21,952 nt of DNA, taken from IMG/VR virus record IMGVR_UViG_3300040816_001526, positions 1 through 21,952 of that record. One strand, 5' to 3'. The translations under genes were made by a program, and so were the position numbers. Shown piece by piece: positions 1 through 18,027 of this stretch; the stretch's first letter is position 1, and each line of letters starts with the position of its first letter. Origin of the DNA: a virus. Under the pieces are notes generated by a model. The model did not search any database. It saw nothing but the letters and a program-made list of their open reading frames with translations, and was not told the origin of the DNA.

Positions 1-3000
1 TTTAATTACTATAGCAGTTGCTAAAACTAGTGCAATTTGTTTGTTAGCATCTTCGCTGTACTTTATGGCTGTTGTCTTTATTTGATCAAAAATAGGTTGT
101 TCAATACCTATTACAATATAAAAGTTTTCATCTTTGTCTTTTAGATCAGGTTCGTTATAAAAGACAACTTTATCATAAATAGCTCTTCTGGCATTTTCAT
201 CACTTGCCTTGAACTTAAAATAAGCTTTCTGGTTATCTTCACCTGTTGACCAGCTTTTACTGATTGTACAACCATGTCTATTTAGATTGAAATTTTTAAT
301 AGGCTTACCAACATTTTCTTTATTGAAGCTATTTGAAAATTGTAATAAAATTCTTTCTATTTCTTTAACAAGAGCAAGACCTGTGTCTCTAGTAAATGTT
401 TCGTTGTGAACAACCTTGATTGGGCTGCTATAATTTGATCGCTTAAGAAGCTTGTCAATCCACTCATTGCTTTCAAGTTTACGAATAGCCTCTTCAGCAT
501 CAGACGCAATACTTGATGGCATACCATCCATCTCACCTTTAATTGTCTTAACAACAACGTCCATAACTTCTTGAACAGTTTGACCAGATCTACCGCCTGC
601 ATCAAACATAGAGTTGAGTTTGCCATTAGCTAAAAGATACATGATTACTTTAGAAACATCGCCTTCCATTGAGTTAAGCAATGTTGTAAAAGAGTCTATG
701 TCAAGGAAGTCACCACGACTCTTAGCTGTGTTACCTCTAGGTTGTGCGCCATTAATAGATCCGTGTCCTTGCTTTGCATTAGGATCAACGATAAGTCCTG
801 CTAAAGCTTCTGCCTGTGAAGCTCTAAGACTTAACTGTTCAACATCTGTAATCTTAATTCCAAAGCAGTCTGACATTAAAGCATTAAGTTTAACTGCTAA
901 TTCTCTCTCAACTCTAGAAAAAAGATTAGGATTACCAACCTTAAAGGTAGATTCATAAGCAAAGAAGTTTTTGGCCTCAAGCTTTTTAGAAATTGTTGCC
1001 CAATTGATGCTAGCACGAATATGACTAGTATCTTCTTCAGTTTCAGGCTTGCTTTCTTTTTTATCTTCTGAAGTTTCTTCTTTGTCACCTTCTTCTTCAA
1101 ATAAGAAGCTTAAGCCTTTATTGTGAATTAACTCATCTTGTATGTCTTCAATAAGTAGACTTAGACCTTGTCGATAAATAAAAGACTCTGCAGCAGTCTC
1201 TGGTCCTTCTGCTTCTTTTGGCTCTTCTTTAACACCTAACACGTCTTTTGAAATGTCTAAGATAATCTTTCTTATTTGATCTTTACCTGACTTAACATCA
1301 CTTTCTAAACCAATTTGTTGTGGGCCTTTTCTAAGATTCTTTCTAAGAGACCTATCTCCCATCTTGCTTCCAAAAAGTGAAGCTATAATTGGTGCAGCTA
1401 GAAGAGCTGTTCCTCCGGTTGCCAGAGTAGGCATTGCAATTGCGGCACCAACAAGTGCAGGCATAACAGCTAAACCGCTTAAAACTGATGCATCCATCGA
1501 GTCTTGTCTTGCCTGATAAGCAATCTGCGAAGCTTCTTGTTGTGCCATCTGTGTTCTTTGCTGAAACACCATTGCAGCAATGCTATTCATCATAGAATCT
1601 AATGTTACATCATATCTGTCTGTAAGCTCATTAATATCATCAGTGCCTTCAGACTTCTTAAACTTTTCTGTAAATAGACTTATAAGTTCATTTACTTCAT
1701 TTGCATCTTCAGCAAAATCTTCAAGTTTAGGTTCTTCTACTTTAGTAACTTCTGGTTTTTTTACTTCGACTTTATGTACTTCCTTTAGATATAACTGAAA
1801 TACTTCAACAATAAAGTCACCCATAACCTCTTTAACTTGCTCAAGAACTTTTGGATTTTTAGCAAAACTATCTTCGATTTTGCTCATAAGATGTTTCAAA
1901 ACAAATTCTTCTTTTTTGCCTTTTAAGAATGAAAGAGAATTTTTAAACCAGTTTCCTATTCCTTTAGCGCTATCTTTGAAAACTTCAATTATATCTTTTA
2001 TAAATACAGGAAGTTCGTTTACCATGATATATGCGCTTATAAAAGGAATCGCACACATTGTTGCAGCACCAATTGCTTTTGCAAGTTGAGCCAGAGCAAC
2101 GACAGTTACAACACTTTCAACTAAACCTTCGTTAAGTTGTCCATCTATTATTTTACCTGCTCTTTGAAGACCTGTTTCATACTTTACTTTAAGTATTTTA
2201 TCTAATTCTCGAACACCATTTTTACTAAAATCTTTAACTTTTTTTACTTCCTTACCAAACACTTCTTCTAATACATTTAACAAATAGTCAATAACTTCTT
2301 TGTTGGTAATGTTTTTAACTACATTTTGTTTAAGTTCTTTAAGATGATCAGTATTTATTTTTTTGTTTTCTAAAAGTTCTTTATACATTTTGAAATCTAA
2401 ATTGTCATATGTAAGCCCCTTGAAGTCAACTTTATTAAAAAGACTTAAAATATGATTTATATTTTTTTCAAAATTCTTAAAGTCTGGTGCTTTTTTCTCT
2501 TGTGGCTCTTCAACTTCACTTTTTTCAAAACTGTAATCAGACTGTGTTATTAAATTTTCTAACTCAGACTGTGTATATGGTGTGCCTTTTTTAAGTGTAA
2601 TAACTTTACCATCTTTAGATACTTCTTCAACAAGAAGACTTAGTCCTTGTGTATAAATAAAGCTTTCATCGGTCTGATTTTCTTCTTTAATCTTATAATC
2701 TTGATTAAATTTAATAGTTTTTTCTTGATTACTGCCTCTTTGACCAAGTCTACCTTCAACGTCCATAGTCTTGTCAGGCTGTGCATCAGATCTAAGAGTA
2801 ATCTTGACTTTTGATCTAAGGTTGCCTTTAATCTCATGCTTGTCAAAAGTATCTTGCAAAGTATTTGCCTGTACTTGTGCTTTCTCAGTCTTTTCTTTCT
2901 CTTGTGCTTTCTCAGTCTTTTCTTTCTCTTGTGCACCATCAGCAGGAGGACTTTGAAATTCAGCAGTCTGTATTATTTGATTTAATGCGTCTGCACTTAA

Positions 3001-5880
3001 AGGTCTACTAGATTTAGCAGGATCAAATGATTCTAGATCAGCTAATACATCGCCACGGTCATCTACTATAGTAATGCTTAAATCTTGATCGTCTCTGGTA
3101 ACTTTAACACTATCGGCGCCTGTAAGCTTGTTTTTGTCTTCTGGTTTGAGTTGAAGTTTTAATAAGTTTAGTTTAGCACTAAACGTTTTATTACCATCAA
3201 ACTTATCTAGATGATCTGCCGTATTAAAAACAGTGCTGCCTTTTGTATACTTTTCTAAGTCTTTAATTTGTGCTGATATGAATTCGTACTTTTTTCTTTT
3301 TAAGAATGATATAAATTTATTTTTTGTTACACTCTTCGCTAACTCGGGTAAGTCTGGAAGATTGTCCTTTTCCTCTATTAAAAGTGACAAACCTTGATGA
3401 TAAATAAAACTTTCTCGTTTTAACTCTTTTATATTGACATCACCAGATTTCGTGCTTATCTTTTTTAATTTAATAGTATTATCAGCCTTATATAGTTCAG
3501 TTTCTAATGTAAAAATCTTGTTGTCTTTTTTAAGATAAATTTTAACTGGAATCATAGCAGGTGTTTTAGGTTTATCTGGGTTTGACATGTTAGAAACAAA
3601 AAGATCTGCATTAAATAACGTGTCTACATCATTTATGTTGCCTTGAAGAGCTTTGCTTTTATCTTGTTGACTAGGTTCTTCTGGTGGCTCTCCGGATTGT
3701 TCTTCAGACTCTTCTCCTCCAAGAGCATCTCGTAAAGCTGCTCTAATATCTCCAGTAGAATGCCCTGCAGTTTGGAGAGCATTACTAACTTGATCTTGTG
3801 TAATGTCTAGGCTTTTCAATCTTTGTGTAAGATTTTCACCATCTACTTTTTGTAAAACATCATTTAATTCTTTAGGTGTAAGTTTTGCTATTACTTGATT
3901 TTTTTGATCAGCGCTAAGACTTTTAAGTTCTTTCGTTGCGTTAAGAGGACTTTCTGACTTAAGTGCTTGTGTTATTCTTTCTATAACATCTTCTTCCTTA
4001 GACTTTGCTAAACTCTCGAGTTCTTGCGTTTGTGCATCTGAAAGATTTGCTGCTTTAATGACTTCTTGCGATTTATCTAAGGCAAGGTCTAAAGTTTGAA
4101 ATCCTTGTGAAAGATCAGTGTCTTCTAAACTCTTCAAAAAATCTGCTATTTCATCAACAGATAGTTCTCCTGTTACTTGCTTTTTTTGATCATTGTTAAG
4201 TTTATTAAGTGTTTTACTAATAGATTCTAGATTTCCAGACTTCATAAAGTTTCTAATTGGTTGCACATCTATTTGACTACTTTGTTCGCCTGACTTTGCT
4301 TGATTTCTTGGAGACGGCTTAACACTATTTAATTTTTCTTTAGCATCTTGTTCACTTAAATTACCATCAAAAATTTCCTTTATTGCATCAGCTAAAGGCT
4401 GATCAACTTCACCATAGAAATCTGTAGTATTTTTTTCTGTAACAAGCACCAATGAAAGATCTTTGTCTACGTCGTCTATGTCAATAATTTTGCCTGTTGC
4501 AAATCCTCTAAATTCTCCTGGGTCGAGTTTTATATAATATCCTAAGCCTTTCTTTGAATAAAATCTAACATATAAAGTATTTTCTTTTGTTTTAGTGAGA
4601 TAATAGCTATTAAAGTCAGCTAAGCGAGTCCCATCATTTATATGATTTCTTGTTAGACTTTTATTTAAGTCTTCATCACTTTGAGCGTCGATAAAGTCTA
4701 TAGTCATATTGCTTTTAATCTTTAGACTTTGATCAATCACGCTATTTAATAATGTTTTAGAATCGTCTGAGTTGTCGGAGATAAAGCCTTTATTTTTAAT
4801 ATAATAAAGTTTTGTATCACCGTCACTAATTACAGCAATATTACTTTTGTCTAGTTTATTTAATTTTTCAATAAATTCATCAACATCGCTGGCATAATTT
4901 GTCAAGCTATTAGCTTTATCACTAGCAGGACTTTCTAAAGGGCTTTCCAATTCAGCTGAGTCTATGATCCTTAGGTTTAGGTCTAAGACAGAGTGCTCGC
5001 CTGTGCCGCTAGCAGCATTTGTTTCAAAAAGTAATGAAGATAAACTTGATTCATGAATCATTTCTCCTTCAAACCTTAAAGAAGAACTTTCATTAGAAAC
5101 ACCTTGTGCTTTATCAGAAGGATCCAAATCTATTTTTTTAGAGTTAAAAAGTGTTAAGTATATATCACTTTGAAATTTATTAAGATATTTTTTTATAGGT
5201 AATACAAAAACAATTACTTGATCTTCTTTTTTACTATTCTTTATCTTAACTTTTTTATTTGTTCTTGGATCAACAATTGTAAAAAATGCGTGTCCTAAAC
5301 GATCAAACATTTTTATGTCTCTATCTTGAGACTTTGTCTTGTCTTCTTTACCAACATTTAGAAAGTCAAATCTTACAGTCCCAATGTTCGTAAGAGTAGT
5401 ATTTGTACCTTGAATTAAATTTGCAACTTGTGTATTTAATTTATTGTCTGACTTTTCAAGGCTCTTATATAACTTGTCATCAGCATTTTTTGCAATTGAA
5501 TTTTTAATTTGAGTAAAACCTGCATCAGTACTTTCAGGACCACCTTGTTGTCCTGAGAGACTTGCAGCATTTTTCTGATATATTTCAAGCCTGCTTTTTA
5601 AGTTTGCTGTGGGTCTAAAAAGCATTGACGCAAAAGTTTGTAGCTCTATTTCAGGCAAAGCAAGAAAAGCTGCACTACTAATTCCTCTAATTTGGATGAC
5701 TGGCGTATTATCCTTGCTTAAAGCTTTTCTTGCTTTAATCTGCTTTTTTCGAGTAGCTCTTCTAGCACCTTTTTTTGCTGCTCTTTTTTTAGCAGCATCG
5801 TTTTTATTTCTCTCAACAACTAACTCGTTGTTTTCGTGATCTTCAAACAATAACTCTGAAAGACTTTTGTTATAATTCAT
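1..5880 (-). CDS. Giant repeat-bearing putative virion internal (polyprotein-like) protein, C-terminus off window
   Basis: I read this minus frame triplet by triplet and found no stop over 1960 codons; it continues beyond the left edge. The ATG at 5880 follows AAGGTG. I do not recognise a known family. Visible content: an N-terminal peptide MNYNKSLSELLFE (1-13) that resembles a T4 capsid-targeting sequence and ends in L-x-E; five internal relatives at 274-286, 823-836, 1072-1085, 1565-1578 and 1583-1595; a very basic stretch at about 25-50; two related helical segments at 561-598 and 655-692; a Glu/Lys tandem repeat near 980-1000; and two long hydrophobic stretches at about 1254-1285 and 1465-1504. 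Much of the rest is charged, Asp/Lys/Ser-rich and low in aromatic residues. No TTGTAA-N17-TATAAT promoter lies upstream, unlike the neighbouring metabolic genes. Inference: a late structural or internal-head protein that may be cut after the L-x-E peptides into products of about 273, 550, 249, 493, 17 and at least 365 residues. It could instead be a tail or baseplate-associated giant protein in which the peptide is only a docking motif. Confidence 0.85.
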   Translation of the reverse strand, partial: MNYNKSLSELLFEDHENNELVVERNKNDAAKKRAAKKGARRATRKKQIKARKALSKDNTPVIQIRGISSAAFLALPEIELQTFASMLFRPTANLKSRLEIYQKNAASLSGQQGGPESTDAGFTQIKNSIAKNADDKLYKSLEKSDNKLNTQVANLIQGTNTTLTNIGTVRFDFLNVGKEDKTKSQDRDIKMFDRLGHAFFTIVDPRTNKKVKIKNSKKEDQVIVFVLPIKKYLNKFQSDIYLTLFNSKKIDLDPSDKAQGVSNESSSLRFEGEMIHESSLSSLLFETNAASGTGEHSVLDLNLRIIDSAELESPLESPASDKANSLTNYASDVDEFIEKLNKLDKSNIAVISDGDTKLYYIKNKGFISDNSDDSKTLLNSVIDQSLKIKSNMTIDFIDAQSDEDLNKSLTRNHINDGTRLADFNSYYLTKTKENTLYVRFYSKKGLGYYIKLDPGEFRGFATGKIIDIDDVDKDLSLVLVTEKNTTDFYGEVDQPLADAIKEIFDGNLSEQDAKEKLNSVKPSPRNQAKSGEQSSQIDVQPIRNFMKSGNLESISKTLNKLNNDQKKQVTGELSVDEIADFLKSLEDTDLSQGFQTLDLALDKSQEVIKAANLSDAQTQELESLAKSKEEDVIERITQALKSESPLNATKELKSLSADQKNQVIAKLTPKELNDVLQKVDGENLTQRLKSLDITQDQVSNALQTAGHSTGDIRAALRDALGGEESEEQSGEPPEEPSQQDKSKALQGNINDVDTLFNADLFVSNMSNPDKPKTPAMIPVKIYLKKDNKIFTLETELYKADNTIKLKKISTKSGDVNIKELKRESFIYHQGLSLLIEEKDNLPDLPELAKSVTKNKFISFLKRKKYEFISAQIKDLEKYTKGSTVFNTADHLDKFDGNKTFSAKLNLLKLQLKPEDKNKLTGADSVKVTRDDQDLSITIVDDRGDVLADLESFDPAKSSRPLSADALNQIIQTAEFQSPPADGAQEKEKTEKAQEKEKTEKAQVQANTLQDTFDKHEIKGNLRSKVKITLRSDAQPDKTMDVEGRLGQRGSNQEKTIKFNQDYKIKEENQTDESFIYTQGLSLLVEEVSKDGKVITLKKGTPYTQSELENLITQSDYSFEKSEVEEPQEKKAPDFKNFEKNINHILSLFNKVDFKGLTYDNLDFKMYKELLENKKINTDHLKELKQNVVKNITNKEVIDYLLNVLEEVFGKEVKKVKDFSKNGVRELDKILKVKYETGLQRAGKIIDGQLNEGLVESVVTVVALAQLAKAIGAATMCAIPFISAYIMVNELPVFIKDIIEVFKDSAKGIGNWFKNSLSFLKGKKEEFVLKHLMSKIEDSFAKNPKVLEQVKEVMGDFIVEVFQLYLKEVHKVEVKKPEVTKVEEPKLEDFAEDANEVNELISLFTEKFKKSEGTDDINELTDRYDVTLDSMMNSIAAMVFQQRTQMAQQEASQIAYQARQDSMDASVLSGLAVMPALVGAAIAMPTLATGGTALLAAPIIASLFGSKMGDRSLRKNLRKGPQQIGLESDVKSGKDQIRKIILDISKDVLGVKEEPKEAEGPETAAESFIYRQGLSLLIEDIQDELIHNKGLSFLFEEEGDKEETSEDKKESKPETEEDTSHIRASINWATISKKLEAKNFFAYESTFKVGNPNLFSRVERELAVKLNALMSDCFGIKITDVEQLSLRASQAEALAGLIVDPNAKQGHGSINGAQPRGNTAKSRGDFLDIDSFTTLLNSMEGDVSKVIMYLLANGKLNSMFDAGGRSGQTVQEVMDVVVKTIKGEMDGMPSSIASDAEEAIRKLESNEWIDKLLKRSNYSSPIKVVHNETFTRDTGLALVKEIERILLQFSNSFNKENVGKPIKNFNLNRHGCTISKSWSTGEDNQKAYFKFKASDENARRAIYDKVVFYNEPDLKDKDENFYIVIGIEQPIFDQIKTTAIKYSEDANKQIALVLATAIVIK
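1096..1134 (-). repeat. Capsid-targeting-like peptide copy 6, residues 1583-1595
   Basis: ELIHNKGLSFLFE, ending in L-F-E. It shares the x-N-K-x-L-S core with the N-terminal copy and the G-L-S core with copies 3 to 5, so it links the two subtypes. Confidence 0.7.
1147..1188 (-). repeat. Capsid-targeting-like peptide copy 5, residues 1565-1578
   Basis: ESFIYRQGLSLLIE, ending in L-I-E. It lies four residues before copy 6, making a close pair. Confidence 0.75.
2626..2667 (-). repeat. Capsid-targeting-like peptide copy 4, residues 1072-1085
   Basis: ESFIYTQGLSLLVE, ending in L-V-E. It is nearly identical in protein to copies 3 and 5, but the codons differ at many positions, so conservation acts on the peptide and not on recently copied DNA. 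Confidence 0.75.
2881..2934. repeat. Perfect 27-bp in-frame tandem repeat (two units) inside the giant gene
   Basis: Units 2881-2907 and 2908-2934 are identical, and the last 7 bases of the unit also precede the first copy (2874-2880). On the minus strand each unit encodes AQEKEKTEK-like residues, giving a highly charged, probably helical or unstructured linker. Because 27 is divisible by three, copy-number change would keep the frame. Confidence 0.9.
3373..3414 (-). repeat. Capsid-targeting-like peptide copy 3, residues 823-836
   Basis: ESFIYHQGLSLLIE, ending in L-I-E. It belongs to the 10-residue-core subtype (Y-x-Q-G-L-S-L-L-x-E) shared with copies 4 and 5. Confidence 0.75.
3733..4200 (-). 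repeat. Internal duplicated helical segment of the giant protein (residues 561-598 and 655-692)
   Basis: Residues 561-598 align without gaps with 655-692 at an offset of 94 residues. Shared positions include D-Q-K-x-Q-V near the start and L-D at the end, about 14 identities in 38 by eye. Both look alpha-helical. The stretch 601-640 between them may be a third, more diverged unit. This is an old protein-level duplication; the DNA is not repeated. Confidence 0.55.
5023..5061 (-). repeat. Capsid-targeting-like peptide copy 2, residues 274-286
   Basis: MIHESSLSSLLFE, ending in L-F-E. It is the same 11-residue subtype as the N-terminal copy and is followed by a Gly/Ala/Ser-rich linker-like stretch. 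Confidence 0.7.
5842..5880 (-). repeat. Capsid-targeting-like peptide copy 1 (N-terminal), residues 1-13
   Basis: MNYNKSLSELLFE. It sits at the position where T4 internal proteins carry their targeting sequence and ends in L-F-E, matching the (L/I)-x-E rule of T4 gp21 prohead protease. It aligns without gaps with copy 2 (YNKSLSELLFE against HESSLSSLLFE). Confidence 0.7.
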
Positions 5881-5993: not shown

Positions 5994-6449
5994 CTACCAC
6001 AAATCAGGTCGATCAAATATCATGCAGTCCATATTTGCTTTCTTTTTTACTGCCTGCACGTCTAATCCAGCTGCCCTAAGTATTTCTAGGCCTTCGACGT
6101 TTCTATATTCATCAGCGTAAAATACGGACTCGATATTGCTATTCACAATAGCTCTTGCACAGTCAGGACAAGGTGACAAAGTCACATACATCTTTTTCTT
6201 TTTAGGATTATTATAGTCTAACTTCAAAAGTGCATTAATTTCAGCATGAATTAAACCACTACAACCAGGCTCTTCTGAAAGAGGTTTATTAGGTCCTCCC
6301 TTATAAGAACCATTATAACCAATAGAAAGAACCTGTGTGTTATCTTCTGTTACAACAATAGCACCAACCTGAAATGTAGGATGATGACTTCTTTGTGCAA
6401 TTGTCTTAGCCATATCCATCCAAATACTATCCCATGAAGGTCTTGTCAT
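5994..6449 (-). CDS. Deoxycytidylate (dCMP) deaminase
   Basis: It converts dCMP to dUMP, feeding dTMP synthesis, in the cytoplasm. The zinc-dependent cytidine/dCMP deaminase signature is complete: HAE at residues 68-70 (zinc His and proton-shuttling Glu) and P-C-P-D-C at 93-97 (two zinc Cys). The Gly-rich GYNGSYKGGPN segment (44-54) is typical of the dCMP branch. At 151 residues it has the normal length for phage and ComEB-type enzymes. The ATG is preceded by AAGGAG at a good distance. It begins 13 bases after the thymidine kinase stop, so the two are probably co-transcribed. Family assignment is firm. An allosteric dCTP/dTTP site, known in T4 dCMP deaminase, is not judged here. Confidence 0.95.
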   Translation of the reverse strand: MTRPSWDSIWMDMAKTIAQRSHHPTFQVGAIVVTEDNTQVLSIGYNGSYKGGPNKPLSEEPGCSGLIHAEINALLKLDYNNPKKKKMYVTLSPCPDCARAIVNSNIESVFYADEYRNVEGLEILRAAGLDVQAVKKKANMDCMIFDRPDLW

Positions 6450-8090: not shown

Positions 8091-8438
8091 CTACATATCA
8101 CTTAGTGCAGCATCAACAACAGCACCTGCGTCAGCTGGATCAACAGCACCATCAACAAGAGCCAAGTCAGCTGCAGGAGCCTCAGCATCAACAAGTGGTG
8201 CTTCAGCGTCAACTAAGCCAGAGTCTGCAAGTGGTAGCTCCATGTCGAGAGGAGGTAAGATACCGTCTGCAACAGGTAGATCTCCATCAAGAACTTCGCC
8301 GTCACTAGCACCGCCATCCTCTAGTGGAGCCTCAACGTCGAGAAGTCTTGCGTCACCACCTCTGCGAACAACCTCACCATCATCGTCTTCGCAGCCAAAA
8401 GCAAAAGCAAGAATCATAACAAGAAATAGATTTTTCAT
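8091..8438 (-). CDS. Asp/Ala-rich secreted lipoprotein
   Basis: A 115-residue protein. It has a short signal peptide, MKNLFLVMILAFAFGC, with the probable lipidated C16 (an A-F-G-C lipobox, looser than the L-A-G-C consensus). The mature chain is very acidic (C-E-D-D-D start) and consists mainly of Asp, Ala, Leu, Gly and Pro with the recurring word EAP followed by L or A (three times); it contains no Cys after the first and almost no Lys. I chose the ATG at 8438 because GGAGG lies just upstream; the in-frame TTG at 8450 overlaps that site. It is monocistronic, with promoter 8459-8487 and terminator 8031-8062. GC content is visibly higher than in flanking genes. Asp/Ala-rich lipoproteins are common in Myxococcota and relatives, suggesting host origin. 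A role at the infected-cell surface, such as exclusion of other phages, is possible but only a guess. Confidence 0.8.
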   Translation of the reverse strand: MKNLFLVMILAFAFGCEDDDGEVVRRGGDARLLDVEAPLEDGGASDGEVLDGDLPVADGILPPLDMELPLADSGLVDAEAPLVDAEAPAADLALVDGAVDPADAGAVVDAALSDM

Positions 8439-8458
8439 AATTTCCTCCAATCCGGATT

Positions 8459-8534: not shown

Positions 8535-9662
8535 ATGTTAAATGTTGAAAAAGACATATTGTTCTTAGAACAATTTATTAATGAAGAAAAAGAGCAAGTA
8601 AATGAAGTAATTGGAACTGCAGCAGTTGTAAAAGGGATTGCTTCTGTTTTGTCAATTCCAGTTATTCTTCAAATTATGGCTACTGCTCTACAAAAGATAA
8701 ACACAACCAAACTTAAGTTTTATTTTCCTGAAGAAGAATTAGATGAAATAAAACTTAAGTCTTTGTTATATCCTCGAGGTCCTGAGTCCGCTGTAGGGGA
8801 CGAAGATATTAAATACTCACCTAAAAGTGTCAAAGTAATAATTGAGTTTATCAACAAATACGGAATGAAAAGCGCAAATGCCTTAAATCAATATAATAAT
8901 AATGAAAAACTAGAGTTTGCAAAAAGAAATGCTGGAGATCAGACTAAGAAGAATATACGTGGTGCTTTAAGCGCAAATGATCCTCTATATCAAATTTCTC
9001 TTATTCTTAATTCTATTCAACAAAACATGCAAACAATAATTGACGAGATATTTGAAACAGTTTCAGCTGGTATTGTTGAATCTATTAATTTACACCCAGC
9101 AATTAATCTCAGTATACAAGACAATAAATACTATTCTAAAGTTGTTACAAAACTATCGAAAGTTCTTTTGTTTGTAGTGGTAGGCGCTTCAATATTTCAG
9201 ACTACCGACTCAGAAGGTGCAAAGAACATTGCTGAGAAAGGTGTAGGCATTTTTAAGAAATTTAAGAACGGTAAAAAGTTTTATGAGTTTCTTAAAGACT
9301 TAGAAGTATTTATACTAGAAGTATCTGCTTTTGTCGGTGATGCACCAGCAGCAGCACAACTTGCAACTGTTGTAGAAGTTAACTACGCTTTGCGTGCGAT
9401 TCAAGCAATTAAACAAAAAATAACTGAAAAGTTTGGCGACTTTAATCTACTTGAATTTTTAGTTGAACTTGAAAGAAAAATAGCAGACTACTTCAAAGAA
9501 GGAAACGTAAAATCACCTTCATTTCAAGATAAACTTAGCGCTGAAGAAGAATTTTCCGATGCAGAAGCAAGACAAGCTTCATTGTCAGGTGAAGACTATT
9601 ATGGCAGCCCTGTTAAATATGAAAACTTTTTACGTCAATATATTAAAATGCTTCTAAGCTAA
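8535..9662 (+). CDS. Unknown protein with capsid-targeting-like N-terminus; probable virion protein
   Basis: 375 residues, family not recognised. The start MLNVEKDILFLEQFINEE carries F-L-E and I-N-E and resembles the T4 targeting peptide MKTYQEFIAE (compare EQFINE with QEFIAE). Hydrophobic helices lie at about 26-53 and 202-222, with the rest alpha-helical and Lys/Glu/Asn-rich. Residues 361-375 end in NFLRQYIKMLLS, which resembles the N-terminus of the next protein (LLLETYIKAILKE). GAGG precedes the ATG. The gene opens a plus-strand pair with the kinase gene 12 bases downstream. No TTGTAA-N17-TATAAT promoter is visible in the 84-base divergent gap, though AT-rich boxes are present. Inference: a late protein packed into or attached to the capsid; the hydrophobic segments would also suit membrane interaction after ejection. 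Confidence 0.8.
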   Translation: MLNVEKDILFLEQFINEEKEQVNEVIGTAAVVKGIASVLSIPVILQIMATALQKINTTKLKFYFPEEELDEIKLKSLLYPRGPESAVGDEDIKYSPKSVKVIIEFINKYGMKSANALNQYNNNEKLEFAKRNAGDQTKKNIRGALSANDPLYQISLILNSIQQNMQTIIDEIFETVSAGIVESINLHPAINLSIQDNKYYSKVVTKLSKVLLFVVVGASIFQTTDSEGAKNIAEKGVGIFKKFKNGKKFYEFLKDLEVFILEVSAFVGDAPAAAQLATVVEVNYALRAIQAIKQKITEKFGDFNLLEFLVELERKIADYFKEGNVKSPSFQDKLSAEEEFSDAEARQASLSGEDYYGSPVKYENFLRQYIKMLLS

Positions 9663-9674
9663 GAAAGATAAATA

Positions 9675-10724
9675 ATGAGCAGACTATTATTAGAAACATA
9701 CATAAAGGCAATCCTAAAAGAAGACAGATTTGACCCTCATACAAAAAAATGTGTTCTTGTTCTAGGCCCTGCTGGTGTTGGAAAGTCTTCCACAATAGAA
9801 AGCATTACAGCAGGTAATAGTCTTAAATACTTAAACTCCGATCAGTTTCTAGAAATCTTTATTGACAGAGAGCTTGCAAAAATCAACAAAGGTAAACCTA
9901 AGTCTAGACAGCTTAATAGAGCATCTTATATGGACAGCTTTGATGCTAAGGTTCAAGAGTTTAGAAAAAAAGCAAGCGAGTTAAATGATAAAAGACTTAC
10001 AAAGTTTACAGGAACAATGTTTGTTGATGATGATAAAGAGCTAAAAGAAAAAGATCCTGAGCTTTATAATGCGCTCGAATCTTATAAAAGCATTGATAAT
10101 AACTTAGGCATTGTAATTGAAGGAACAGCTTCAAGTCCAGGCAGTGCTGAATGGTTTCATAATAGCTTTGTCAAACCTCTTAAATCTAGAGGCTACCAAG
10201 TATTTATTGTTGGAGTTTATGCTCCACTTTATGTTTGTATGAAAAGAAATAAGTTTAGAGGTCAAAGTGGTGGTAGAGAACTTACTTCTTCACATATGAG
10301 TAGTGTTTTTTACGGATTTATCAACGAATATTCTAAACTTATTAAGAACGCTAAAAACGATATTTGGGGTTCTTTGACTGTTCTTAACATTAATGACGAT
10401 GATTTTGATAGCGAATCAAAAGAACAACTTATTAGCTATGTCAATATGATTAATCATCCTAATACTATCAAAATAAAGCAACAACGTCATGCTGATAGGA
10501 TGTCTAGCGAAATTATAGACTCTTTTGAAGACAAAAAAGAAATGTCAGACGAAGAAAGAGCTCAAACACTTGAAATGGAAAACTTAGCAATAGAACTTAA
10601 CCTATTAAAAAAAGCTGAAGAATCATCTGCAGCTGAAAAATACATTATTCAACATAGCAAAGATCCTAAAGCTATTAATAGCTATATGAGCGCTTTCTTA
10701 AGTAACTCCTCTCCACCTGCCTAA
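9675..10724 (+). CDS. P-loop zeta-toxin/PNK-like kinase with capsid-targeting-like N-terminus
   Basis: 349 residues. Walker A is GPAGVGKS (31-38). A probable catalytic Asp is D56 in LNSDQF, matching the N-x-D of zeta toxins. An acidic strand IVIEG (146-150) and a basic lid with R191, R195 and R201 follow. This order fits the zeta-toxin/polynucleotide-kinase superfamily, whose members phosphorylate UDP-amino sugars, nucleic acid ends or other small substrates; the substrate here cannot be told. The first 16 residues, MSRLLLETYIKAILKE, precede the kinase core, end in L-K-E, and look like a targeting peptide. The C-terminal third (about 250-349) is charged and helical, without a recognised domain. 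Only a weak AAGAAAG lies before the ATG, so translation may depend on the upstream gene. Inference: an enzyme carried in the virion and delivered into the host with the DNA. Confidence 0.75.
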   Translation: MSRLLLETYIKAILKEDRFDPHTKKCVLVLGPAGVGKSSTIESITAGNSLKYLNSDQFLEIFIDRELAKINKGKPKSRQLNRASYMDSFDAKVQEFRKKASELNDKRLTKFTGTMFVDDDKELKEKDPELYNALESYKSIDNNLGIVIEGTASSPGSAEWFHNSFVKPLKSRGYQVFIVGVYAPLYVCMKRNKFRGQSGGRELTSSHMSSVFYGFINEYSKLIKNAKNDIWGSLTVLNINDDDFDSESKEQLISYVNMINHPNTIKIKQQRHADRMSSEIIDSFEDKKEMSDEERAQTLEMENLAIELNLLKKAEESSAAEKYIIQHSKDPKAINSYMSAFLSNSSPPA

Positions 10725-10922: not shown

Positions 10923-13900
10923 TTACTCAAATGCGTTAATAAGCTTCATCTTGCGAAGCGATGTTGACATACCCCAACTTGCGTCATTGTGGACTTCTGA
11001 TAACCAAAGTGTGTAGTTAATATCGTCTTCAAGCGTTCCCCAAACACGAACCCAACCTGTATTACTTTCATTATCAGTTACCTTTAGACGCAAGAAATCT
11101 TTACCATTCTTTGTCTTTTTCTTAATCGTTTCTAAGATACAAAACCAACCAATACCTTTCTCACCCGATGGAATCTTAAAGACAGAACCTACATTCTTTT
11201 GTTCAACCTTATCTACGAAGCTTTGTGGAAAGAGAAGATCAATAGAAGCGTCATTAGAAAGATCCATATAGTTTTGAATCTTTTCTGTACGATTCCAATC
11301 ACTAACTGTCTTTACAACTTTCATAATATCGTTAACTACTGGAACTAGCTCTTCACCATTCTTAAGAGCACGCTTTTGCTGCGTTTTTGTTACACCATAA
11401 CGTCCTTTTCGCAACCTATCATAGTTACTAATAATCATTTCAAAAAGCTGGCGGTGATTATCTAAGATACCTTCTTTGATCTCTTTAAGCGAAGAGAACG
11501 CCTCCATTTTACATAAGGTAGTAAATGCTGTCTTGTTAAGCTTTGAATGACGCCACGAGCCATCTTCTGTAAAGAAAAGATCATCAAGTTCTTGATAAGG
11601 ACGATTTTCAAAGATTTCATCAACAGCTTTATCACCTACACCTTTCAAAGATGTTAGAGGCGGAACAAATGCCTGGAGTTCATCCGAATATTGCCAATTT
11701 GCACCAGAGTGATTAATATCTGCAGGAGCGATTTCATAGCCAAACGATTTGATTTCGCTAATAGCTTTGGACATTGCAGCTGGATTACCGTTTTCGGACT
11801 GAAGGATTGTTGCTAACCAATCAGTTTCGTGATGTGTATGAAGCCATGCTGCGTAATAAGAGTCAATAGCATAAGCAACTGCGTGACTTTTATTGAAGCC
11901 GTAAACACTAAAAAATTCAATCTCTGACCAAAGCTTTGATGAAACTTCTTCAGGAACACCATTTAGTTCTTTAGCACCTTTGATAAACTTATCACGTGCA
12001 ATAGCTTTTTCGGAACCCTTCGAATGAAGCGTATCAAGTGACTTTTTAACAAGTGTCTTACGAAGCTTATCAGATTCGCCTGGATCAAATCCAGCTAGCT
12101 TCTGTGCCAAAAGCATGAACTGCTCTTGGAATGTTACGAATCCGAATGTTGGTCCTAAGATTTCTTCAATAATAGGATGATCATATTTGATGTTATCTGC
12201 ATCACGCTTTGCCTTAACATACTTTCTATGAACATTAGCCTTGAGTGGTCCAGGTCGATAAATAGCTGTTAGTGCCGCTAACTCTTCAATGCTGTCAGGT
12301 TGTGCTTCTAGTGCGAACTTTCTAGCACCACTTGCTGTGAACTGGAATACGCCACAGAATCTTCCGTTATGATAAACATGTTCCCAAACTTTAGGATCAT
12401 CCTGCTTAACAAACCTACAGTTAAGATGCTTATCAAAGAAAGCTTTTGCATCAAGGAATGTAGGATTAGGATTGCCTTGTTTCTTAAGGATACGATAGAT
12501 ACAGTTTTCTACATCTTTTAGCAGGGTCAAGCCAAGAAAGTCAAACTTAAGAAAGCCATTGTCTTCTAGGTTTCGGAAGTTCATACCTTCTGTCCAAGGG
12601 GTTTGTAGATCACCTCTTACACCGATGATTGGCATTGACTCCTGTAGGTCTTTTGGGTCAGCAACAATAACACCTCCTGCGTGACGTCCAACAGAACGGT
12701 TTTGCATAAACAAGGTTGCTACATGCTCGCCAACCTCCGGATACTTTTCCATAAACTCCTGATATGTAGGAGAATACTTCATGCAGTCTTCATGCTTAAG
12801 AACAAAGACAGACTTTTCTTGATTTTCATCACGAGCAAGTGCCATTACTTCTTCTTGCAGCGGTCCTGTTAGTTTATTTACCTCATCAAAAGGAACACCA
12901 TGGAACTTAGAGATATCTTTGATAAGTGACTTAAGTTTAAGAGTATTAAAGTTAGATACAGGAATAACAGCATCATCACCATAAAGTTCACGTGCTGCAT
13001 TGATTAGTTCATCACGGTCACCTGCATCTGTATCAATATCAGGCCAAGAAACACGGTGACGACCTAGGAAACGAGACCATAGAAGATTATAAGGAATAGG
13101 ATCAAGCTGTGTAATACCAAGTAGATAGTTTACAAGAGATCCACCTCCACTACCACGAGCAGGGCCAAATAGAGTCTTAGTTTCAGCCTTCTTGAAGATT
13201 TCATACATCGTAATAAAGTATGATTCGTGTCCTAGAAACTTAATATCAGATAACTCTTCTTTAGCACGATCAACGTATTCTTTGTTATCTGCTAAACCTT
13301 CTCGAACTAGTGCTTCTTTAACAAGATCTGATAGATGCTTAAATGGCGTTTTGCCAGGAACACTAATCTTCGGAAGCTTTGCTTCGCTATCTACCCATGT
13401 ATCTTCACATTCATTCCAAACGATATCATGAGTTCTTTCAATAGCACCTTTAACTAGTTCTTCATTGCCTTTATAGAAATCGTGGTTACTGTAACCGTCC
13501 TTAAACTCATCCCACATTTGAGATGCATTCTTAGGAAACAGCTCACACTGCAACTCTTCATACTGCGGAAGAGTCATGCCATCACGTTTACCAAGCCAAC
13601 CAAGCTTTTTATACAGCTCACGTGCTTGCCATTTGTCTTGTGTAGGATAATGAGAATCAGCTGTTGCAATAATCGGGATGTTTGTTAGCTTATGATGTTC
13701 AATAAGATAATCATTAACAACATGTTGCTTATCGATTTTATTGAACTGTAGTTCTAGATTAAAGTTATCACCAACGCAGTCAAGGAAACGATCAGAAAGC
13801 TTTGTAAGCTCTGCTTGGATTTCAGCACGTGATTGACCATGTGCTACACCACGAAGAATACGATTTGCAAAAACACCGCCTAAACATGCAGTTGATACAT

Positions 13901-14495
13901 GCAAACCTTCACCATGCTCTTTAAGCATTTGAAAGTCAATGCGAGGATATCGATAGAAGCCGTATTTATATGACTTCTTAACAAGAGTAAATAGATTTGC
14001 TAGACCTTTAGCATTCTTTGCAATAGCAACAAGGTGATATCGTCGTTTCCATTCATCTTTTAAGATGTCAATGCTTTTGGTTTCATCTTCATCCTCAACA
14101 ACGTGACCGCCTGCCTCATCATCGGCATCAATATCAATCTTTTCTTTTGCCTTCTTTTCAGCAGCAGCTGATGACTTTGCATCTTTAATAGCTTGCTTAT
14201 GTGCAGCATAATCTTCAGTCCATTGCTGCAGTGAAGGAACGAAATAAAACTCAACACCATAAAGCTGGCGATAGTTTTTACCTTGCTTTTGAAGTTTAGC
14301 TGCATGCGAATGTGCATGAGCAAGGCCATTACCATTACCATGATCAGTAAGTGCCCATGCATCCATACCTTGTGACTCAGAAGTAATGAAGTCAATGTGA
14401 TCGGCAGGATAACCTAGACCATCAAAGGTTGAGAAATGTGAGTGAGCATGGAGCCCGACGAATCTTGTTGGAGGCTTAATTAAATCAATTGACAA
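10923..14495 (-). CDS. dnaE: DNA polymerase III alpha subunit (DnaE type)
   Basis: 1190 residues, close to bacterial DnaE (about 1160). Domains in order: PHP domain with HAHSH (16-20), TDHGN (50-54), S-T-A-C-L-G-G and D-S-H-Y, so its metal-binding residues look intact; an acidic/Lys-Ala-rich insertion at about 105-145; palm with RGSGGGS (about 446) and catalytic PDIDTD (485-490; D488 and D490); third catalytic Asp D652 in KFDFLGL; YRPGPL; FQEQ; YGFNKSHA (about 865); helix-hairpin-helix LKGVGDKA (about 950); and an OB-fold near 1115-1145. No exonuclease insertion, so it is DnaE and not PolC. The start must be TTG at 14495 (MSIDLIK), because the next Met lies inside the PHP domain; AGGTGA is 4 bases upstream. 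It likely replicates the phage genome. Whether it uses host clamp and loader is unknown. Confidence 0.97.
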   Translation of the reverse strand: MSIDLIKPPTRFVGLHAHSHFSTFDGLGYPADHIDFITSESQGMDAWALTDHGNGNGLAHAHSHAAKLQKQGKNYRQLYGVEFYFVPSLQQWTEDYAAHKQAIKDAKSSAAAEKKAKEKIDIDADDEAGGHVVEDEDETKSIDILKDEWKRRYHLVAIAKNAKGLANLFTLVKKSYKYGFYRYPRIDFQMLKEHGEGLHVSTACLGGVFANRILRGVAHGQSRAEIQAELTKLSDRFLDCVGDNFNLELQFNKIDKQHVVNDYLIEHHKLTNIPIIATADSHYPTQDKWQARELYKKLGWLGKRDGMTLPQYEELQCELFPKNASQMWDEFKDGYSNHDFYKGNEELVKGAIERTHDIVWNECEDTWVDSEAKLPKISVPGKTPFKHLSDLVKEALVREGLADNKEYVDRAKEELSDIKFLGHESYFITMYEIFKKAETKTLFGPARGSGGGSLVNYLLGITQLDPIPYNLLWSRFLGRHRVSWPDIDTDAGDRDELINAARELYGDDAVIPVSNFNTLKLKSLIKDISKFHGVPFDEVNKLTGPLQEEVMALARDENQEKSVFVLKHEDCMKYSPTYQEFMEKYPEVGEHVATLFMQNRSVGRHAGGVIVADPKDLQESMPIIGVRGDLQTPWTEGMNFRNLEDNGFLKFDFLGLTLLKDVENCIYRILKKQGNPNPTFLDAKAFFDKHLNCRFVKQDDPKVWEHVYHNGRFCGVFQFTASGARKFALEAQPDSIEELAALTAIYRPGPLKANVHRKYVKAKRDADNIKYDHPIIEEILGPTFGFVTFQEQFMLLAQKLAGFDPGESDKLRKTLVKKSLDTLHSKGSEKAIARDKFIKGAKELNGVPEEVSSKLWSEIEFFSVYGFNKSHAVAYAIDSYYAAWLHTHHETDWLATILQSENGNPAAMSKAISEIKSFGYEIAPADINHSGANWQYSDELQAFVPPLTSLKGVGDKAVDEIFENRPYQELDDLFFTEDGSWRHSKLNKTAFTTLCKMEAFSSLKEIKEGILDNHRQLFEMIISNYDRLRKGRYGVTKTQQKRALKNGEELVPVVNDIMKVVKTVSDWNRTEKIQNYMDLSNDASIDLLFPQSFVDKVEQKNVGSVFKIPSGEKGIGWFCILETIKKKTKNGKDFLRLKVTDNESNTGWVRVWGTLEDDINYTLWLSEVHNDASWGMSTSLRKMKLINAFE

Positions 14496-17145: not shown

Positions 17146-18027
17146 ATGAATAGAAAAGAATTTACTAATCTTCTTCTCGAATGGCGAGAAAACTTTATTA
17201 TTGAAAGAGGCTTGCCTCATGAAAAACTTGGAAAATTTGAAGGTATAATAAAATTTTCGGAGCTTGTAAGGAAAAACCCGAGTATCATACCTATTGAGTT
17301 TGTTACGTTTAAGTTCAATCAAGAGAAAAAGCCTTTTTATCAAGATATTATAGCAAAGTATAGCTCTGAAGGGAGCAACAGAGAAGCTGTTTTAGATAAC
17401 ACAGAACAAAATAGACAAGCCATAGCAAAAGATTTAGAGGACGCAAATCTCATTGACAAAGTAAAGTCTAATCAAATATTAAATTCTTCAGACGCTGATA
17501 TTGTTATAATACCTGAAGAAGGTGATATTTCTTCAGAAATAAATAAAGATTCAATGGGTAATACAATTTGGTCAATACATGATTTGTGGCACGCTTATTT
17601 ACAAGATGTCATTAAATATAATTTTAAATCAAAACATGACCATAATGATTATTACTTGTTTTTAGAGTTTGTAATGCAAGCTCTTTCAACAGAAGACTAT
17701 CCTCATTTTTTTGACTTTGTTGACGCTGATCCTTCGATATTCGCTTTTTTGTATTTGTTTATTATGGAATTTGATAGTCAAACAAATGAATTTGATATTG
17801 AAAAATCAAATAATAACATTGATAAGCTAAAAGCTGACTTGCAAAATTTTGATCTATCAAACTATTTGAGCAAAGATGAATATCCTGATTACTTAGAGAA
17901 AGAAACAATTGTAAATGTTGATTCTCTTATAGACACAATTAAAAATATAAACAAAAGTACTTGTGAGACTTTGCAACAAAAGATTTTTAATAAAAACAAA
18001 GAGATTAAATTAGAAATCATATCGTAA
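17146..18027 (+). CDS. Unknown protein with capsid-targeting-like N-terminus and HxxxH motif
   Basis: 293 residues, family not recognised. The start MNRKEFTNLLLEWRENF has L-L-E at 10-12 and resembles targeting peptides of T4 internal proteins. A central segment, SIHDLWHAYLQD (143-154), gives H145-x3-H149, with E174 in FLEFVMQAL 25 residues later; this could be a metal site, but it is not the standard HExxH. A His/Asp cluster (KHDHND, 163-168) lies between them. The rest is acidic and helical. It stands alone on the plus strand between two minus-strand blocks, with only a weak AGG before the ATG and no TTGTAA-N17-TATAAT promoter. Its stop is one base from the stop of the convergent small gene. 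Inference: possibly a late, virion-packaged protein. Confidence 0.75.
   Translation: MNRKEFTNLLLEWRENFIIERGLPHEKLGKFEGIIKFSELVRKNPSIIPIEFVTFKFNQEKKPFYQDIIAKYSSEGSNREAVLDNTEQNRQAIAKDLEDANLIDKVKSNQILNSSDADIVIIPEEGDISSEINKDSMGNTIWSIHDLWHAYLQDVIKYNFKSKHDHNDYYLFLEFVMQALSTEDYPHFFDFVDADPSIFAFLYLFIMEFDSQTNEFDIEKSNNNIDKLKADLQNFDLSNYLSKDEYPDYLEKETIVNVDSLIDTIKNINKSTCETLQQKIFNKNKEIKLEIIS

Follow-up and report, generated by a model that had tools for sequence, protein, structure and literature searches.

Is a giant viral protein that carries the same kind of short peptide six times one protein, or the precursor of several? The question is raised by a virus record of 21,952 bases, itself a fragment (22 kb), which was analysed over its full length and is called the window below. 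A preliminary description had reported one open frame of at least 1960 codons, with six copies of a peptide of the capsid-targeting and prohead-protease type, and had proposed a "self-segmenting" internal-head polyprotein. The frame proved real, though it lies on the minus strand, reading from 5880 to 1, and is unclosed at the window edge. A near-identical sister contig, L001 (IMG/VR 3300043015_003085, 51 kb, also a fragment), holds the complete gene of 2136 residues, with the C-terminus ...LLRLWKIR. Because L001 provides the complete gene, the last segment, previously put at "at least 365" residues, can be set at 541. L001 and the window show 39 mismatches over the shared 5880 bases, all within the last ~600. 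Window positions 1-595 (residues 1762-1960) carry all 39 nucleotide differences, the remaining giant gene being identical, and 18 residue changes fall at 1816-1918 of the protein; this stretch appears to have recombined or to be changing fast.

1..5880 (-): giant multi-signal protein gene, 1960 codons here; 2136 aa in L001 (10001-16411)
5994..6449 (-): dCMP deaminase, conserved upstream neighbour of the giant gene and slot marker

Searches for known relatives of the chain gave little. It has no Pfam match above cut-off and no PHROG match, and tblastn returned no match to it among 50,697 isolate phage records. Domain searches detected no protease or peptidase domain in it. When the L001 segments alone were used as queries, their relatives were just L001 itself and one further contig, L006.

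All six peptides were confirmed at the positions initially reported, every one terminating in L-x-E. The chain opens with MNYNKSLSELLFE, whose Glu at 13 falls within the length of about 10-20 residues expected of an N-terminal (L/I)-x-E peptide of the T4 type.

5842..5880 (-): signal 1, residues 1-13, MNYNKSLSELLFE; N-terminal, with similar N-terminal peptides in divergent slot proteins
5023..5061 (-): signal 2, residues 274-286, MIHESSLSSLLFE; homology to L006 stops 10 residues beyond
3373..3414 (-): signal 3, residues 823-836, ESFIYHQGLSLLIE; ESFIY copy, by self-comparison
2626..2667 (-): signal 4, residues 1072-1085, ESFIYTQGLSLLVE; ESFIY copy, by self-comparison
1147..1188 (-): signal 5, residues 1565-1578, ESFIYRQGLSLLIE; ESFIY copy, by self-comparison
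1096..1134 (-): signal 6, residues 1583-1595, ELIHNKGLSFLFE; tandem partner of signal 5, the two ends lying 17 residues apart

The L-x-E triplet on its own is weak evidence, being short and common; the chain holds 43 [LIV]-x-E triplets. Comparing all ungapped 14-mer windows within the chain, we found that three copies share the form ESFIYxQGLSLLxE and score 59, 60 and 62 against each other, whereas 60 shuffles gave 36.6 on average and never more than 46. The likeness of the ESFIY peptides is thus not due to chance. Within the pairs of these copies, codons differ at 4-8 of the 12-13 identical residues, which argues against a recent duplication and indicates that the likeness is held at the protein level. 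Weaker pairs were not significant by self-comparison (34 for 1-13 vs 274-286; 31-37 for 1583-1595 vs the others). Copies 1 and 2 nevertheless gain support from L006, where 22/26 of their residues are identical to L001, compared to 96/253 outside the signals. A position-specific scoring matrix trained solely on N-terminal peptides from other genomes ranked signal 2 first (18.0) and signal 1 second (16.1) within the chain; the four GLS-type copies were not separated from background by this N-terminal matrix.

The signals divide the chain into five long segments:

5023..5841 (-): segment 1, residues 14-286, closing with signal 2; basic (predicted pI 9.8); homology to L006 1-281
3373..5022 (-): segment 2, residues 287-836; acidic; weak MgtE_N-like match at 551-598
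2626..3372 (-): segment 3, residues 837-1085
1147..2625 (-): segment 4, residues 1086-1578; hydrophobic, transmembrane-like stretches at 1252-1294 and 1463-1504
1..1095 (-): segment 5, residues 1596-1960 (L001: 1596-2136); C-terminal

MgtE_N was rejected as the family of segment 2, the match reaching 20.3 bits against a Pfam cut-off of 25.9. AlphaFold2 gave mean pLDDT values of 36.5 for segment 1 (6 sequences) and 37.4 for the C-terminal segment (3 sequences); at 36-37 the models are too poor for domains or linkers to be read from them.

The giant gene occupies a defined slot, between the dCMP deaminase and superoxide dismutase (SOD) genes, that can be followed through related viruses. Using the window's DnaE-type polymerase as query, we found ~90 viral contigs forming a clade. 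Many of these genomes have a small gene alone in the slot; in others it holds one large protein of 313-2744 residues, mostly dissimilar in sequence. Many slot proteins start with a signal-type peptide, such as MSLKLKDALFE, MNIKLADLLFE, MNTKLSELLFE or MQHSLSKMLFE, and several carry further signals inside the chain:

L140 (2744 aa): signals at 11, 294, 1301, 1433 and 2339
L011: signals at 11, 276, 303, 1103 and 1391
L071: signals at 11, 269, 1678, 1822 and 1846
L142: signals at 11, 500 and 1071
L144: signals at 17, 1356 and 1928
L177: signals at 45, 446 and 469

Tandem pairs comparable to that at 1565-1595 recur in L011 (276/303), L071 (1822/1846) and L177 (446/469). Across 23 slot proteins (24,377 residues), an extended motif occurs 21 times, whereas 200 shuffles gave a mean of 0.43 and a maximum of 2, an excess that is somewhat optimistic because the regular expression was composed after examples were known. 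L088, L165 and L174 are among the slot proteins with a clear signal near the N-terminus alone. Since many genomes have no large slot protein and some have the N-terminal signal alone, multi-segmentation must be dispensable in the clade. The slot proteins also show two kinds of C-terminal tail, one RLWKIR-like (L001, L140, L011, L220) and the other RWxxLAGL-like (L146, L148, L172, L176, L091).

The preliminary description had proposed to check by homologue alignment whether the peptides stand out as conserved islands, and they do so both in the L001/L006 comparison (22/26) and in a second pair of giants. This pair, L220 (2699 aa) and L140 (2744 aa), consists of orthologues that have diverged to 24% identity overall. 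Their signals align one to one (5/5, signal 3 within one residue), and in the four internal signal windows 36/56 residues are identical, a level reached in 0/20000 random draws.

Several boundaries at which homology changes also lie at or close to signals. The similarity between L001 and L006 ends 10 residues past signal 2, and the L006 sequence differs thereafter; this giant slot protein (L006:17644-19830) contains a glutathione peroxidase domain at residues 603-699 (E=1.7e-26), and no other glutathione peroxidase was found in the 50 clade contigs searched. The alignment block shared by L220 and L140 stops at the signal Glu 1284/1433, and that shared by L011 and L142 at the signal Glu 303/500. 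Some homology boundaries do not fall at signals. Following the last signal, a related C-terminal domain is present in L140, L011 and L220 and, more weakly, in L001, where residues 1621-1798 of segment 5 match the domain of L140 and L011 with a two-sequence profile (E=7e-4); single-sequence hhalign comparisons of the C-terminal segments gave nothing significant for L001 vs the others, significance being reached solely with this profile. The L140-type segment 1 is a stand-alone 248-aa gene in L014 (E=3e-8) and lies inside the chain, at 288-473, in L142. The L014 gene starts MKLSDILYN, without Glu, and its product would therefore not be cut at the N-terminus. A 203-aa protein encoded separately in L144 bears its own signal at the N-terminus and resembles the first segment of the adjoining giant (E=3e-4).

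Clade contigs of sufficient length have T4-type head genes. A gp23-type capsid protein was present in 16/20 clade contigs searched (match to T4 gp23 with E about 1e-30), and the head module comprises portal, protease, a gp22-like scaffold candidate and gp23. The search for a gp21-like protease, proposed as a check on the initial reading, succeeded in relatives, with a PF03420 protein in 16/50 clade contigs (match to the T4 gp21 structure 5jbl with E=5.5e-17), and gave none in the window's own 22-kb contig or in the 51-kb sister L001, both of which are fragments. The window's SSB is ~40% identical to its best isolate phage matches. Microcystis phage Mel-JY01, the best isolate by SSB, was considered as a bearer of the system and set aside: it has a T4-type head module, but site enrichment at its N-termini is weak (9.0 vs 4.2 per 1000), and no giant with multiple signals was seen in it.

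L-x-E sites are not confined to the giants. The clade's gp23 has [LV]L[KR]E near residue 61 in 8/8 proteins examined, and this L-[KR]-E site lies in the region in which T4 gp23 is known to be cleaved. Two genes downstream of the giant gene, the SOD-like protein bears a 22-63-residue N-terminal extension. In most genomes examined the extension terminates, ahead of [AS]YV, in [LI]-x-E (with M or V in rare cases); in four sequences that are out of register a Glu likewise precedes A/S, further upstream. This Fe/Mn superoxide-dismutase-like gene (L001:16838-17575) has homologues in 44/50 clade contigs, and its product is likely a head-packaged antioxidant enzyme. More generally, among 1671 clade ORFs the pattern [LIVM][LIVMF]xE occurs at residues 11-20 at a rate of 20.5 per 1000, compared to 4.6 further in, an enrichment of 4.5x. 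N-terminal peptides of the L-x-E kind are hence common in the clade.

Taking these observations together, we consider it more likely than not that the product of the giant gene is a precursor from which several internal head proteins derive; the reiterated targeting peptides would recruit it, and a gp21-type protease would probably cut it. The model builds on T4, in which a 10-residue targeting sequence is all that a protein needs to enter the prohead, and gp21 cleaves behind this sequence (PMC9026906). Each peptide of the giant chain would, like the T4 capsid-targeting propeptide, provide an amphipathic stretch that docks the chain on the prohead core, and several such docking peptides together would recruit the chain into the prohead. 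There, a separate gp21-type prohead protease, once active, would probably cut after L-x-E, leaving some five packaged proteins, of approximately 31, 61, 28, 55 and 61 kDa, and a 17-residue piece. The packaged segments would then be ejected into the host along with the DNA; the hydrophobic stretches at 1252-1294 and 1463-1504 would suit proteins that meet the host membrane at ejection. Weighing against the model are the shortness and frequency of L-x-E, the L014 gene without the Glu, the relatives that have an N-terminal signal alone or no large slot protein, the homology boundaries away from signals, and the negative protease searches in the window's contig and its sister, both fragments. The initial proposal of multi-signal recruitment followed by cutting is supported in part: it agrees with the clade protease, the L-x-E sites and the conserved islands, and none of the findings named there as refuting it turned up, but two of its elements need amending. 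Because the searches revealed no protease domain within the chain, the term "self-segmenting" should be dropped; the cutter would be a separate protease of the gp21 type. The exact fragment list (273, 550, 249, 493, 17 and >=365 residues) is provisional, because further L-x-E triplets exist in the chain.

The peptides might instead act in multivalent docking without segmentation, in which case the N-terminal copy alone or none would be cut and one large internal protein would be packaged and ejected. We regard this as unlikely, though it draws on real features of the T4 system, where targeting is separable from cleavage: an Asp at position 10 stops processing and spares targeting (PMC9026906). 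The tandem copies at 1565-1578 and 1583-1595, too, are hard to explain as mere cut sites. However, docking alone would not require the copies to retain the Glu and the Leu/Ile two positions before it, as they do even in divergent relatives, nor would it account for several homology blocks changing at signals and for one segment existing as a separate gene. It seems more doubtful still that the chain is targeted and then chewed small like T4 gp22, gp67 and gp68, as part of a core or scaffold that is cleared away without giving rise to packaged products. Such a fate has precedent, since gp21 cuts the T4 core proteins into short fragments that exit the head (PMC5694885), and the L-x-E triplets of the giant chain are numerous. 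Yet the clade's own gp22-like scaffold candidate adjoins the capsid gene, the large slot protein is missing from many genomes, the glutathione peroxidase domain of the L006 chain (E=1.7e-26) is unexpected in a discarded scaffold, and hydrophobic membrane-like stretches suit ejected proteins better than a discarded core.

Two further explanations would detach the internal peptides from head maturation or from the finished chain. That they are a structural or binding motif unconnected with the head, such as an amphipathic helix that recurs to link domains of a tail or injected protein, we judge highly improbable: the giant gene does adjoin nucleotide-metabolism genes and not the capsid gene, but similar peptides are common near the N-termini of separate clade proteins, the propeptide of the neighbouring SOD ends in [LI]xE|[AS], and the clade has both a gp21-type protease and a gp23 L-x-E site. 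Least credible, to the point of being nearly negligible, is the idea that gene fusion left the internal copies behind or that they mark internal translation starts, each segment having been, or still being, begun separately with the peptide as its N-terminus. It would fit signal 2, which opens with an in-frame ATG (M274) preceded by AAGGAGAA, and the L144 slot, where two adjacent genes each carry an N-terminal signal; M274 is not kept in L006, however, and the other internal copies have no in-frame ATG, GTG or TTG just before them. Fusion as the evolutionary origin of the chain is compatible with a precursor that is recruited and then cut.

How does the proposed precursor relate to known systems? 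Like T4 IPI-IPIII and Alt, it has a short N-terminal peptide ending in L-x-E, which in T4 is removed by gp21 after (L/I)-x-E (PMC9026906, PMC5694885). The clade has a gp21-type protease and a gp23-type capsid, and the first segment of the giant is basic. Unlike the T4 internal proteins, with one targeting peptide per chain, the giant has six, five of them internal, over 2136 residues. No homology of its mature part to IPI, IPII, IPIII or Alt was detected with Pfam, PHROG or tblastn; T4 internal proteins are themselves poorly conserved. The likeness we claim is accordingly one of the way of working and not of homology: as we read it, the giant chain follows the T4 mode of targeting and processing and probably makes use of that system. 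Cutting at more than one place has a precedent in T4 Alt, which gp21 cuts at both ends, at ITE-6 and LTE-619 (PMC5694885). T4 gp22, gp67 and gp68 also have several gp21 sites per chain, but are reduced to small discarded fragments, and the giant's clade has a separate gp22-like candidate. Nor does the giant gene behave as a conserved member of the head cluster, as a T4-type core or scaffold gene would: it sits in the slot flanked by dCMP deaminase and SOD, and many genomes lack a large gene there.

More distant parallels can be drawn with head proteins of phiKZ, 201phi2-1 and SPN3US, which undergo extensive Glu-specific proteolysis at several sites per chain (PMC9026906, PMC10052503). In those phages the extra sites break up a propeptide for clearance, whereas the giant's sites separate long segments, and the motif of the giant and the head genes of its clade are T4-like. 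A further parallel is offered by the polyvalent proteins of phages and conjugative elements, which are likewise large chains of several domains, presumably delivered along with DNA and then divided into units (PMC5512222). Conflict domains can be recognised in them and a peptidase is often embedded (PMC5512222), while the cutter proposed for the giant is the head protease; neither an embedded peptidase nor known conflict domains of polyvalent proteins were found in the giant chain.

On a broader and more tentative view, to which we would give slightly less than an even chance, the giant is a phage cargo polyprotein, encoded by a single modular gene, in which targeting-plus-cleavage tags serve as punctuation, allowing unrelated internal proteins (such as the glutathione peroxidase domain of L006) to be swapped, packed in equal numbers and released by the maturation protease. 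The strategy of cutting a polyprotein is known from RNA viruses of animals and plants; a reiterated polyprotein form of T4-type head processing did not appear in the literature searched (open-access papers). Should this hold, the head-maturation protease of these phages would double as the cutter of a cargo polyprotein, and one gene might load several cargo proteins at equal copy number. Giant anonymous genes would be explained as strings of separate proteins, and the combination of peptide and L-x-E would serve as a rule by which packaged and injected proteins of uncultivated viruses could be recognised.

Several other genes of the window and its relatives deserve mention. Downstream of SOD, an acidic ~260-residue protein (L001:17572-18375, with similarly placed proteins in L139, L172 and L142) carries an N-terminal and one internal signal, for example at residues 26 and 154, and is thus a second kind of protein with an internal copy. 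The window itself encodes at 9675-10724 (+) a P-loop protein with a zeta-toxin/kinase-like match and the N-terminus MSRLLLETYIKAILKE, which makes it a candidate for another packaged protein. Two proteins of no known family, at 8535-9662 (+) and 17146-18027 (+), have N-termini (MLNVEKDILFLEQFINEE and MNRKEFTNLLLEWRENFIIE, respectively) that resemble signal-class peptides. A small lipoprotein-like ORF at 8091-8450 (-) has a low-complexity body rich in Asp, Ala and Leu, and opposite-strand ORFs overlap it. Finally, the DnaE-type DNA polymerase at 10923-14495 (-), found here in a virus group with T4-type head genes, is ~30% identical to the nearest isolate phage enzymes, and in L087 an insertion of intein-like appearance interrupts the polymerase gene.
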